64,000 nt of DNA from Synechococcus sp. UW69 (GTDB lineage Bacteria > Cyanobacteriota > Cyanobacteriia > PCC-6307 > Cyanobiaceae). This document shows positions 41,696-46,390 of this stretch, one piece after another (within the stretch, counting starts at the first letter, position 1; each line of letters starts with the position of its first letter). The notes below the pieces were generated by a model. It had not been told where the DNA came from, searched no databases, and was given only the letters and a program-made list of their open reading frames with translations. The translations under genes and the position numbers were made by a program. The stretch spans positions 186,001 to 250,000 of the forward strand of contig NZ_UCNW01000011.1 in assembly GCF_900474185.1 (NCBI RefSeq), read 5' to 3'.

Positions 41696-42064
41696 TCAAA
41701 TAAGTCCAATACTAGCGAATAGGCCTTTGCTCAGAATCATTAACAGGCAAATTGAGGTTCCAGCCACCAAACTAAAATTAACTAATTGGAAAATTACCGG
41801 GCTTTGCAGCGATTCCAACTGCGCCGTCGGCTTTTGATCTTGACGAGATCCCTCCCAATAGGCGAAGACCAAACCCTTCTTGGCCACAAGCTTGTCACGA
41901 GTATTTAGCGAGCCGTAGCCAAACTCACTAATCATTTGCGATTGCTGCTTAATTTTTTTACTCTCGGCCACAAAAACAGACTGTATCCAATTACTATGCG
42001 CGCGAATACCAATCGCAATCCAAAAGATTACTGGAATGCATACAAGGAGGTTTAGATAGTCCAT
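41696..42064 (-). CDS. Hypothetical two-span membrane protein
   Basis: 122 residues from ATG 42064 (MDYLNLLVCIPVIFWIAIGI), with a second span near the C terminus (FQLVNFSLVAGTSICLLMIL). The 70-residue middle is polar. An ATG at 42193 would add 43 polar residues. The DNA is clearly more AT-rich than the flanking core, as is everything to about 44.0 kb. The sequence from here to 42428 holds no other gene. Confidence 0.5.
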   Translation of the reverse strand: MDYLNLLVCIPVIFWIAIGIRAHSNWIQSVFVAESKKIKQQSQMISEFGYGSLNTRDKLVAKKGLVFAYWEGSRQDQKPTAQLESLQSPVIFQLVNFSLVAGTSICLLMILSKGLFASIGLI

Positions 42065-42428: not shown

Positions 42429-42725
42429 CTATTTCTTTGTTGCAGATGACTGATCGACCGAAGCAGATTGTTCTTTCACAGTTGCGGACGGCTTCTTTTG
42501 ACCCTCTGAAGTCTCACTCTTTGTTGCAGATGATTTTTTCTCAGATACAGATTTCTCTTGTTTGACCACTTTTTCCTGTTTGACTGGTGGCTTCTTTTTG
42601 GGTTTCAGCTTGCTTGTATCCAGAGCACTTTCACCAAATGATTTATAACCCAGCAAGACCAGTCCGCCGACCACAGGGATCGAAGCAATACCACCCATGG
42701 CAATTTCAAATCCACTTAGAGCCAC
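42429..42725 (-). CDS. Membrane-anchored Lys/Ser-rich protein
   Basis: 98 residues: one hydrophobic N-terminal span (MGGIASIPVVGGLVLLGY) followed by a 65-residue tail of Lys, Ser, Glu, Val and Thr with near-repeats (KKPPVKQEKVVKQEKSV, SSATKSE, SSATKK). The tail is almost certainly disordered and basic. It could tether nucleic acid or an acidic partner at a membrane. Function unknown. Confidence 0.6.
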   Translation of the reverse strand: MALSGFEIAMGGIASIPVVGGLVLLGYKSFGESALDTSKLKPKKKPPVKQEKVVKQEKSVSEKKSSATKSETSEGQKKPSATVKEQSASVDQSSATKK

Positions 42726-42789: not shown

Positions 42790-42929
42790 ACTATGGGCAA
42801 GTATCAAATGGTCAAAGTTTAGACTCTTTTTTGCATGGCAAATGTTTTGATCCTTCATTTTACTGTCACTTATTGTCTTGCCTATTATTCTTTGGATGTA
42901 ATTCTTACATTAAAGAATTTCCAGGTTAA

Positions 42930-43682
42930 TTGGCCTCCCTTTCTTCCAGGGCTCGTTTACGATTCAATCTATCAAGCCAAAACTCCCGGGTTGACGCTAT
43001 ATCAGGTCGCTTACCTCAGCGTCGATCAGATCTATCGGCAGAATTAGCATCTGAAATAATCGGGAAGTGCTACCGCCAGATTTTTTTTCATGCGATGTCT
43101 TTTGATCGCGATCCTTTTCTAGAATCTCAATTTAAGTCTGGCAGCATCACAGTAAGGGATTTCGTAAGGGGCTTGCTCCTCTCAGAGCGTTTTTACAATG
43201 GATATGTTGCATGCAACAATAACGAGAGAATTGTCGAGCAGGTTTTAGGGCGGGTTTTGGGCCGTCCTGTTTATGGCTCAGACGAAAAGGGGTCTTGGTC
43301 TATTGTTATTGCTGAGCAAGGATTTTCAGGATTTGTTGATGCTGTTCTTGCCTCTCCTGAGTATTTTGAGAGATTTGGAAATGATGAGATACCTGAACAA
43401 GTTAATCGAACCTTGCCAGGCCGTCCTCAGGGTGAGATGCCCATCTATCAGCGCCTGCCCCGCTATGGAGAGAGTTGGCGCGAGCGCTTGATTCGTGATG
43501 GGTTGATGTTGTCTATAGATGCTTTCAATAAAATTAGTCGTCCAATGACGGTATCCCGTCAGATTTACGAAAAGCCAAAGGGTCGTCTTCTCAAGCTTTG
43601 GCTTCTTTTCTTAATTGTTGGTGGCGCTGGAAGCCTTTACTTGGTGCTTTTAATCTTCAGCCAGATGTTTACGATTCGCTGA
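42930..43682 (+). CDS. CpcL-like phycobilisome linker with C-terminal membrane anchor
   Basis: 250 residues from a TTG start preceded by CCAGG. Residues about 37-165 form a phycobilisome linker domain (IIGKCYRQIFFHAMSFDRDP, SGSITVRDFVRGLLLSERF, VEQVLGRVLGRPVYGSDE, FVDAVLASPEYFERFG). The C terminus has a single membrane helix (LWLLFLIVGGAGSLYLVLLI). This is the layout of CpcL/CpcG2, which anchors phycocyanin rods to photosystem I without a core. The gene is AT-rich and lies far from any pigment gene cluster in view. A 4Fe-4S ferredoxin gene follows 24 bases later. Confidence 0.8.
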   Translation: MASLSSRARLRFNLSSQNSRVDAISGRLPQRRSDLSAELASEIIGKCYRQIFFHAMSFDRDPFLESQFKSGSITVRDFVRGLLLSERFYNGYVACNNNERIVEQVLGRVLGRPVYGSDEKGSWSIVIAEQGFSGFVDAVLASPEYFERFGNDEIPEQVNRTLPGRPQGEMPIYQRLPRYGESWRERLIRDGLMLSIDAFNKISRPMTVSRQIYEKPKGRLLKLWLLFLIVGGAGSLYLVLLIFSQMFTIR

Positions 43683-43706
43683 AATTTTCATGGAAGCTTG
43701 GTACAG

Positions 43707-44009
43707 ATGTACATAGAAAGAAATCTGGTTGATGCAGCTTTTTCATCACATCCTGGGCAGCTTCGTACGGGATCCGAACCATCTTTAGGCGGAGGACTTC
43801 GCGACAAAGCAGTTTGGGTTGAGGAAGTTGACTGCATTGGCTGCCGTTATTGCGCACATGTAGCGTCCAATACTTTTGTGATGGTTCCAGAAACAGGTCG
43901 CTGTCGTGCGATTCGCCAAGACGGTGATTCAATTGATCGAATCCAGGAAGCGATTGACACCTGTCCTGTCGATTGCATTCATTGGGTCGATTTTGAAGAC
44001 CTCAACTGA
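43707..44009 (+). CDS. 4Fe-4S ferredoxin, plant/cyanobacterial DnaJ-Fd-like type
   Basis: 100 residues from ATG 43707; a TTG three codons upstream is possible. The cluster ligands are VDCIGCRYCAHVASNTF and CPVDCIHWV, giving C-x2-C-x2-C and a distal C for one 4Fe-4S cluster. The 30-residue N-terminal extension is unusual for a minimal ferredoxin. It follows the CpcL-like linker closely on the same strand, so the pair is probably co-transcribed and may act near photosystem I; that link is inference. Confidence 0.85.
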   Translation: MYIERNLVDAAFSSHPGQLRTGSEPSLGGGLRDKAVWVEEVDCIGCRYCAHVASNTFVMVPETGRCRAIRQDGDSIDRIQEAIDTCPVDCIHWVDFEDLN

Positions 44010-45072: not shown

Positions 45073-45240
45073 ATGGAACTCACCTTCTTGGGCAACAAAT
45101 ATGCAAAGTCAGAGAAAGCAACTACCAGGCCAACAATCCAACTCAAATACATGGGTAAATCCTATCGGGCCGATCAAGTCAATTCGGTTCGCAATTCCGT
45201 TGTTCTGACTTATCGCGGCGTCTCCTATTCCAAGGCCTGA
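45073..45240 (+). CDS. DUF4278-type small protein
   Basis: 55 residues, from ATG 45073. The end VVLTYRGVSYSKA and the start MELTFLGNKYAKSEKA both match the LTYRGxxY repeat style of the cyanobacterial DUF4278 family, with KYMGKSYRAD in between as a third, weaker copy. Function unknown. Too short to be found by usual length cut-offs. Confidence 0.6.
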   Translation: MELTFLGNKYAKSEKATTRPTIQLKYMGKSYRADQVNSVRNSVVLTYRGVSYSKA

Positions 45241-45341
45241 ACAGGCTCAGGTTCCACCCCTGCCCTGTCGCCGCCGGCCTCAGCCCTGATGGGGCAGCAG
45301 AAACTACGGCAAGAAGATCAAGCATCAGCAAAAATGGCGGG

Positions 45342-45578
45342 ATGAGATTTCTGATCACAGCCCTTGTCGCGTCATGGGCATTGGTCTTGCCGGTGCGGAG
45401 TGCGGAACCGATTCCCCTCGTGGTGGTTCCCTTTGACGCAGCATGGGGATCGCGACGTCTTCCCGTGCAGCCAGCAGCGCTTCTGCCCCCACCGCCAGTC
45501 CCCGAAGCGAAGCAGGACACGGAATCCAAAACTGAACCGAGACATCAGGGTCAGCGCTGGTGCCGTGGCCGTTGCTAA
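45342..45578 (+). CDS. Small secreted proline-rich protein
   Basis: 78 residues with a signal peptide (MRFLITALVASWALVLPVRS, cleavage near 20). The mature part includes a Pro run (AALLPPPPVPEAK) and a basic Cys-containing tail. First of three consecutive small secreted proteins on this strand. Function unknown. Confidence 0.5.
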   Translation: MRFLITALVASWALVLPVRSAEPIPLVVVPFDAAWGSRRLPVQPAALLPPPPVPEAKQDTESKTEPRHQGQRWCRGRC

Positions 45579-45643
45579 TGCCACCACCGCTGTCGCTCAA
45601 ACGCGTTTTGTGTAAACCGAAGACATCACTTCTGACTCCCGTC

Positions 45644-45862
45644 ATGCGACACACGGCTCTGTTGATGGCCGTAATCCTTTGGGGCTCCACGGCTCTCGCA
45701 GGCGGGAATCGGGCCACAGCCCAGGGCCCCTCAGAGCAGTTCGCCACCGCAGAGGCCATGCGCGTGGTCCCAAAAGGGGCAACGATCACCGACACAACCT
45801 GCAAAAGCATTGATGTGGGATTCAGCAGCCGCTATCAGTGCACCATCACTTACAGCCCCTGA
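45644..45862 (+). CDS. Small secreted two-cysteine protein
   Basis: 72 residues from ATG 45644: signal peptide (MRHTALLMAVILWGSTALA) and a 53-residue mature part with two cysteines (TCKSIDVGF and RYQCTITYSP) that could form a disulphide. The product resembles a small beta domain. The next gene begins eight bases after the stop. Confidence 0.6.
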   Translation: MRHTALLMAVILWGSTALAGGNRATAQGPSEQFATAEAMRVVPKGATITDTTCKSIDVGFSSRYQCTITYSP

Positions 45863-45870
45863 GCAGATCA

Positions 45871-46140
45871 ATGAAAGGCTTGCTTGCTCCGTGTTGGGCC
45901 TTGCTGCTGCTTGGAGTACCGGCCGCGGGACGCGCCGCATTCGATGAGTGCCAGCTGATGGATCAGGTGCTGAATCGCCTGGGCAACGCCATGGCAATCA
46001 ATCGAGCAATCATCGCTGAGAGCAGTGACAGCAAAGCTGTTGCTGTGGCGAGCGAAGCTCTTGCCCAGCAGAACGAGAGCTATCGACGCACAAAGCGCCA
46101 GCGCTCCAAAGCAGGCTGCGAAGGCTGGGAACGGGACTAA
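45871..46140 (+). CDS. Small secreted helical two-cysteine protein
   Basis: 89 residues from ATG 45871. Signal peptide (MKGLLAPCWALLLLGVPAAG to about residue 22) followed by a helical domain bounded by two cysteines (DECQLMDQVLNRLGNAM near the start, KAGCEGWERD at the end). Probably in an operon with the preceding secreted protein. Function unknown. Confidence 0.6.
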   Translation: MKGLLAPCWALLLLGVPAAGRAAFDECQLMDQVLNRLGNAMAINRAIIAESSDSKAVAVASEALAQQNESYRRTKRQRSKAGCEGWERD

Positions 46141-46180
46141 CTGATGCCAGGCAAGCTGGTGGAACGATGATTGAGAGACC

Positions 46181-46390
46181 TTGGCCGTCACCGTCTGCCA
46201 GAACTGCGGAAGCCGTCGGTTTCGTGCCGATCGATCCATGGCCGGACGGCTGGTCTGTCAGAACTGCGGTCTTGCGGCAGGGAGCCGAGCCACGCGCCCA
46301 ACGCCGCTGAGCAATCGGCGCAGCAACAGAAAGTTCTGGCTGGTCATCCTGCTGCTGGCGATCATCGTGCTTGTGGTGATCACGTCATGA
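46181..46390 (+). CDS. Zinc-ribbon membrane-anchored protein
   Basis: 69 residues from a TTG start. Two CQNCG motifs (about residues 6-10 and 26-30) form one zinc ribbon, followed by a basic linker and a C-terminal hydrophobic span (FWLVILLLAIIVLVVI). The layout suits a tail-anchored cytoplasmic zinc-ribbon protein. The 3' end overlaps pepN by 11 bases convergently. Confidence 0.65.
   Translation: MAVTVCQNCGSRRFRADRSMAGRLVCQNCGLAAGSRATRPTPLSNRRSNRKFWLVILLLAIIVLVVITS

Follow-up and report, generated by a model that had tools for sequence, protein, structure and literature searches.

A phycobilisome (PBS) linker with a predicted membrane tail and a ferredoxin with a single [4Fe-4S] cluster, encoded side by side in the cyanobacterium Synechococcus sp. 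UW69, form a real, conserved and patchily distributed module, and on balance we lean towards the view that this pair belongs to a low-iron antenna and redox module on the photosystem I (PSI) side. The pair occupies positions 42930–44009 of the window, that is, the whole stretch of 64,000 nucleotides analyzed here (positions 186,001 to 250,000 of the forward strand of contig NZ_UCNW01000011.1). The linker, the ferredoxin and two small genes upstream are called CpcL2, Fed7b, f1 and f2, and a second tailed linker in the same genome CpcL1, all names coined in this analysis. The favored reading rests on predicted architecture, conservation, co-occurrence, neighborhood and phylogeny, from which iron induction, docking to PSI and a redox role are inferred. 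The original prediction, made from the sequence alone, proposed an antenna-PSI electron-transfer module and saw a hint of transfer; in outline its central idea holds, but the family label and the transfer hint do not, and it missed the iron-stress context and two divergently oriented genes for membrane proteins.

A tailed linker and a Fed7-type ferredoxin side by side

CpcL2 (42930–43682, forward strand) is an open reading frame (ORF) of 250 amino acids with a TTG start and the C-terminal residues MFTIR, in which residues 39–157 match the linker domain PF00427 (PBS_linker_poly) with an e-value of 7e-33. Hydropathy peaks at 2.53 around residues 225–243, and the AlphaFold2 model has a helix at residues 219–248, predicted to span the membrane; the predicted local distance difference test (pLDDT) scores are 81 and 87 for the blocks covering residues 221–240 and 72 for residues 241–250, with a whole-model mean of 67.6. 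The hydrophobic tail is present in all 17 aligned sequences from the same genus, that of genome G011 including undetermined residues. A fold search with the model placed CpcG chains at the top, with Synechocystis CpcL (8hfq_n) ranking ninth. The ratio of nonsynonymous to synonymous substitution rates (dN/dS) was 0.016–0.25 in 9 of 10 genome pairs and could not be computed for the other pair.

Fed7b (43707–44009, forward strand) begins 24 nt after the CpcL2 stop codon, and no terminator-like site was found between the two genes. The ATG at 43707 is the preferred start because of the orthologues, a TTG at 43698 being possible too. The protein matches Fer4_13 (e-value 5e-15), carries the motif C-x2-C-x2-C...C-P-x2-C of a single [4Fe-4S] cluster, and has cysteines 46, 49, 52, 89 and 93 in the spacing of residues 53, 56, 59, 96 and 100 of Fed7 (Sll0662) of Synechocystis, likewise a single-cluster ferredoxin. 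Fed7b differs from Fed7 in being a second paralogue, in adjoining a linker and in having an extra conserved cysteine, C69 as numbered from the TTG at 43698. Its dN/dS was 0.04–0.22 in all but one of 6 pairs, the exception, a very close pair, reaching 0.74. The linker with a predicted C-terminal membrane helix and the single-motif ferredoxin 24 bases behind it had both been called correctly from the sequence; the N-terminal extension also pointed out in the ferredoxin is present, but is not special to this gene because the housekeeping copy shares it.

That housekeeping copy (G000:C4:58449 in the window genome) sits in a DUF2997-DUF1257(ycf35)-ferredoxin cluster, the fed7 arrangement described by Cassier-Chauvat and Chauvat (PMC4284462), whereas DUF2997 and ycf35 are absent around Fed7b. 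Within a family sample of 400 genomes, at least one Fed7 match occurs in 376 and two matches in 23, and one copy adjoins the linker in 17 of these 23. In G369, both matches are of the housekeeping type, near-identical and on two contigs, and in G154, G304, G337, G346 and G390 the second match is partial, at a contig end, split or weak (51%); none of the 23 two-match genomes showed a clear second-type copy that does not adjoin the linker. G012, G016, G357 and G365, all incomplete, yielded the linker-side copy only. In a midpoint-rooted tree of 48 distinct Fed7 cores (77 columns, with few resolved forks), a branch with support 100/97 divides 26 housekeeping copies from a group made up of 21 linker-side copies and that of G022; all 22 second-type copies have G[RK]C and all 26 housekeeping copies GRS. 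G022 is incomplete and showed no other Fed7 than this copy, which has f2 about 0.5 kb away and a flavodoxin gene at about 2 kb. Judged by these sequence features, Fed7b is a second, divergent Fed7-type paralogue. In a second genus, g57, the Fed7b N-terminus has a doubled S-A-A-F-T-A motif (loci L210, L212, L213, L214 and L217); the A-F is near invariant over 17 Fed7b rows and occurs in housekeeping copies too.

Distribution of the pair across genomes

Orthologues of CpcL2 occur in 17 of 34 genomes of the same genus (the window genome and 33 others), Fed7b adjoining in 11 of these 17. Genus g57 carries CpcL2 in 15 genomes among the matches listed for the family sample; there, the ferredoxin follows the linker in G216 and G228 (UW140 and UW105) and lies tail-to-tail with it, 4–5 nt apart, in G319, G324, G329, G339, G349, G353, G357 and G365. 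The dedicated ferredoxin proposed from the window thus withstands the synteny check, linker and Fed7b being adjacent in 21 genomes (own included), in two genera and two orientations. The linker of locus L125 (G068, a genome matching G334), cut off at a contig end and so with no DNA beyond it, is possibly CpcL2 and was left out of the counts.

Phylogeny and base composition of the linker

Besides CpcL2, the window genome has a CpcG without a transmembrane segment and, inside the PBS cluster, the tailed linker CpcL1 (L010, G000:C6 near 136841–137461), whose C-terminal hydrophobic segment peaks at 1.68–2.16 (11 same-genus copies). Two linker trees were built, the first from 86 of 215 collected linkers and the second with 88 rows; CpcL2 is represented by 23 of its 32 carrier genomes (17 same-genus, 15 g57), the Anabaena-type CpcL was identified by PDB entries 9wd5, 9w4j and 9w7k, and Synechocystis CpcL was left out. 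The 23 CpcL2 rows form one clade, with support 99/90 in the first tree and 99/93 in the second, and this clade joins, at 100/100, the family's own tailed linkers from the PBS cluster, apart from the Anabaena-type CpcL. Support for a separate clade of the PBS-cluster linkers is 95/77 in the 86-row tree but only 71/16 in the 88-row tree, and long branches (own CpcG, G022) leave the rooting unsure. An approximately unbiased (AU) test rejected a single clade of all 52 tailed linkers (p 2.9e-5). Identity with CpcL by common descent is rejected on these trees, which lack the Synechocystis protein, and on the AU test: CpcL2 is CpcL-like by its predicted architecture, not CpcL by descent. The CpcL/CpcG2 label first attached to it therefore fits the architecture and not the ancestry, and the tree once proposed as a check groups the protein with tailed linkers.

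CpcL2 shares with CpcL (CpcG2 of Synechocystis and PCC 7002, CpcG3 of Anabaena) the PF00427 domain, one C-terminal hydrophobic tail and the fold match to 8hfq_n, but falls in a separate clade together with the CpcL1 of its own family. Its location within the PBS rod cluster suggests that CpcL1 is the CpcGII of marine Synechococcus; it is of the same family as CpcL2 and tailed, but lies amid other PBS linkers, with no ferredoxin partner seen. Six et al. (2007, PMC2246261) did not detect CpcGII by mass spectrometry in their test strains, although they had earlier seen it in a PBS fraction of WH8102. The same paper reports a third cpcG, cpcGIII, unlinked to PBS genes in strains BL107, CC9902, CC9311 and CC9605, and isiA, isiB and a specific ferredoxin were reported from the same four strains (Dufresne et al. 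2008, PMC2441476). CpcL2 is probably cpcGIII, an identification drawn from the strains rather than from alignment: both are extra cpcG-like genes outside the PBS genes in strains with isiA and isiB. cpcGIII was described as a rod-core linker, and the accessible text of that paper holds no tail, ferredoxin partner or iron context for it.

Base composition had been read as a hint of transfer. The low GC is real, the values of 0.402 and 0.459 at 42–44 kb being the two lowest among 64 one-kb windows, of which 45 lie at 0.57–0.66 and 19 lower (for example, 0.50–0.55 over 23–31 kb). However, in 26 of the 27 carriers (out of 32) whose GC was measured, CpcL2 is AT-richer than the locus fetched around it. 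As AT-richness is family-wide, it is no evidence of recent transfer into the window genome, and none need be invoked, its sister G008 having the same four genes.

Iron-stress genes and two probable small membrane proteins at the linker loci

In the same genus, an isiA-type gene lies 1.2–1.7 kb from CpcL2 in 6 of 17 genomes, a flavodoxin gene turns up in 10 of 17 within the flanking DNA fetched (up to about 10 kb, less where contigs are short), and at least one of the two genes is near the linker in 13 of 17; genes for a petF-type ferredoxin, a helix-turn-helix protein and a metallothionein also recur. Pfam assigns these neighbors to Flavodoxin_1 and to the PSII/CP43 family, the label isiA being our reading of a 344-residue member of the latter that is distinct from CP43 hits of 488 residues. 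Among 19 same-genus genomes at least 98% complete, CpcL2 is present in 9 of 12 isiA-bearing and in none of 7 isiA-less genomes (p 0.003), and its presence also goes with that of f1 (p 1.2e-4) and of a second flavodoxin (p 7e-4), with p values that ignore kinship. The search for isiA was confined to the same-genus genomes. The second flavodoxin (L273:3355–5174, contig C9 of G000) lies with small genes f5, f6 and f8, some of which accompany it in other genomes; f8 is a 45-residue protein with one hydrophobic stretch.

The two genes that the original prediction had passed over, f1 (41696–42064, reverse strand; 122 residues, two hydrophobic segments, conserved in linker genomes) and f2 (42429–42725, reverse strand, divergent from the linker; short, with one N-terminal hydrophobic segment and a Lys/Pro-rich tail), probably encode proteins located at the membrane. 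Homologues of f1 occur in 18 of the 34 same-genus genomes, namely all 17 that bear the linker and G007, 1 of the 17 without it. The gene is in the linker locus in 14 of 17 genomes; the distance is about 5–6 kb in G010, G012 and G015, and in G020, G022 and G023 it is elsewhere in the genome. f2 is found in 14 of 17 same-genus linker loci, and the f2 of G022, close to Fed7b as noted above, is 1.3 kb from flavodoxin. The window f1 protein has no Pfam match, and its AlphaFold2 model is of low confidence (mean pLDDT 59). An assignment of f1 to EXPERA was rejected: the match of a longer ORF (e-value 0.002) is below the cut-off and disappears when the protein begins at the conserved Met. In g57, genome G344 has an f1 homologue (46%) at 2.8 kb from its linker.

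A possible low-iron antenna and its alternatives

In the mechanism we propose, CpcL2 would thread a short phycobiliprotein rod through its PF00427 domain, and its predicted C-terminal helix would pin this rod to the thylakoid. By analogy with CpcL and from the gene context, the pinned rod may feed PSI, or an NDH-1/PSI complex, rather than the PBS core and photosystem II (PSII). Such an antenna, presumably induced by iron limitation, would help when iron-rich PSI is scarce and each center needs a bigger antenna, alongside the chlorophyll ring of IsiA. Fed7b could sense or relay the redox state of the PSI acceptor side via ferredoxin-thioredoxin reductase (FTR), as suggested by the biology of Fed7 and by the extra cysteine, and in doing so adjust or protect the CpcL2 antenna, while f1 and f2 might be small membrane partners.

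Precedents for both halves exist. PCC 7002 yielded CpcL-PBS-PSI complexes when iron was low, but not in normal medium (PMC9319322). In Synechocystis, iron starvation induces Fed7, and tolerance of iron limitation depends on it; Fed7 is a low-abundance stress ferredoxin downstream of FTR rather than a bulk PSI acceptor, interacts with FTR and with a DnaJ protein, and loses the FTR contact when C100, the counterpart of C93 in Fed7b, is changed (PMC4284462). The PSI side of the module first proposed thus finds support in the gene context (isiA-type gene, flavodoxin and petF, and in g57 ndhH and men genes), whereas for a ferredoxin of the Fed7 type "electron-transfer module" may mean redox signaling.

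Several observations speak against a low-iron PSI module. CpcL2 lacks an adjoining Fed7b in 11 genomes (6 same-genus and, in g57, G164, G185, G276, G344 and G373). No isiA was found in the linker-bearing G010 and G015, both incomplete, and the window genome has its isiA on the same contig as the linker but about 117 kb away, and both its flavodoxins on other contigs. Only 3 kinship-independent pairs of genomes are available for the co-occurrence (about 2 agree and none opposes), too few for significance. The tail-to-tail pair of g57 lies amid menE (below the NCBIfam cut-off), menC, menA and a thioesterase gene, near ndhH, a setting read in G357 (L213:4234–11827) and found by clustering in five or six of seven fetched loci (relatives of L213: L210, L211, L212, L214, L216 and L217). 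No Fur box was recognized by eye in the isiA, flavodoxin and linker promoters, and we found no link between Fed7 and phycobilisomes. Expression of the CpcL2-locus genes was likewise not found in the accessible parts of the low-iron Synechococcus literature, in which the strains lack isiA or the genes are unnamed.

Instead of iron, the quality or quantity of light may be the signal. CpcL2 rods would then serve PSI in certain colors, as CpcL does in chromatic acclimation type 1, Fed7b would guard against photooxidation, and the iron genes would be neighbors by way of flexible islands. The patchy distribution of CpcL2, with 5 changes on the CpcG tree, and its absence from 3 of the 12 isiA-bearing near-complete genomes would suit such a module, which we nevertheless consider unlikely: CpcL2 neighborhoods repeatedly contain isiA, flavodoxin and petF, in G020 and G023 flavodoxin and petF are no more than about 2 kb from f1, and in G022 flavodoxin is about 2 kb from Fed7b, so that chance co-residence in islands is improbable. 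A module for NDH-1-linked cyclic electron flow, with CpcL2 bridging PSI and NDH-1 and Fed7b serving the complex, draws on the requirement of CpcL-PBS for the NDH-CpcL-PBS-PSI complex (PMC9319322, PMC10322944). The g57 pair points the same way, with ndhH nearby and men genes, for the PSI cofactor phylloquinone, on either side, but ndhH is a near neighbor in that g57 lineage only and this may be mere position. To our knowledge, Fed7 is not the known NDH-1 donor, which also counts against this explanation; we hold it to be quite improbable as a separate account, and it overlaps the low-iron PSI module, of which it could be a part.

That CpcL2 is an ordinary extra rod-core linker, beside an unrelated ferredoxin gene by chance, seems very unlikely to us. 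The published name, rod-core linker cpcGIII (the identity resting on strains), and the rank of CpcG chains above CpcL in the fold search agree with it, but every orthologue examined has the predicted membrane tail, Fed7b adjoins in 21 genomes in two arrangements, and none of the 23 two-match genomes of the 400 has a clear second-type Fed7 copy away from the linker.

The low-iron PSI module thus remains our preferred reading. A stronger form of it, in which marine Synechococcus possesses a second membrane-anchored phycobilin antenna of PSI for low iron, evolved apart from CpcL, governed by a cysteine-modified Fed7 redox switch and assembled with f1 and f2 as partners, is offered tentatively, as something that may well not hold in full. 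The PSI supply of marine Synechococcus in low iron is usually discussed via IsiA and flavodoxin; the CpcL2 locus adds a possible phycobilin route with a matched regulatory ferredoxin, in defined genes. The two systems often share neighborhoods and strains, isiA encoding a chlorophyll ring protein and CpcL2 being a phycobilin linker. In low iron, some Synechococcus ferredoxin paralogues, unnamed in the source, rise and others fall (PMC9723758), and the CpcL2 locus may help explain such paralogue-specific behavior. The name cpcGIII has been in print since 2007, with no function found for it in the accessible part of that literature, and in the literature surveyed, mostly non-subscription, we recognized no report that joins a CpcL/cpcG linker, isiA and a Fed7b-type ferredoxin in marine Synechococcus.

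Promoter region and remaining neighbors

A candidate shared regulatory element, GTATCAAATG, lies at 42801–42810 (forward strand), 129 bases before the linker start. Upstream of CpcL2, 19 of 29 genomes have the pattern GTAT[CA]AA[AT]T, 18 of them between −120 and −134, whereas shuffling predicts 0.3 genomes; this control ignores kinship and is post hoc because the motif was picked after viewing alignments. TATCAAATG occurs five times in the window genome, once before CpcL2 and once before isiA on the opposite strand, and ATTTGATA occurs in the isiA upstream regions of 6 of 19 genomes, at −262 to −273; a GTATCAAAT-like element is common to the CpcL2 upstream region and some isiA promoters. We treat this element as a lead rather than a binding site. 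A sigma-70-like promoter match lies upstream of the linker at 42859–42888 (forward strand); such matches number 3 against a shuffle mean of 2.2, which is not above chance.

Metallothionein-like ORFs are located just past the ferredoxin in five genomes and past f1 in G008 (loci L074–L079); at least those of G008, G019, G029 and G031 seem intact, whereas those of G013 and G016 seem altered. Further along the window, positions 45073–46390 hold short ORFs without a clear family, including a zinc-ribbon-like protein at 46181–46390, and these separate the CpcL2-Fed7b module from the gene for an M1 aminopeptidase.
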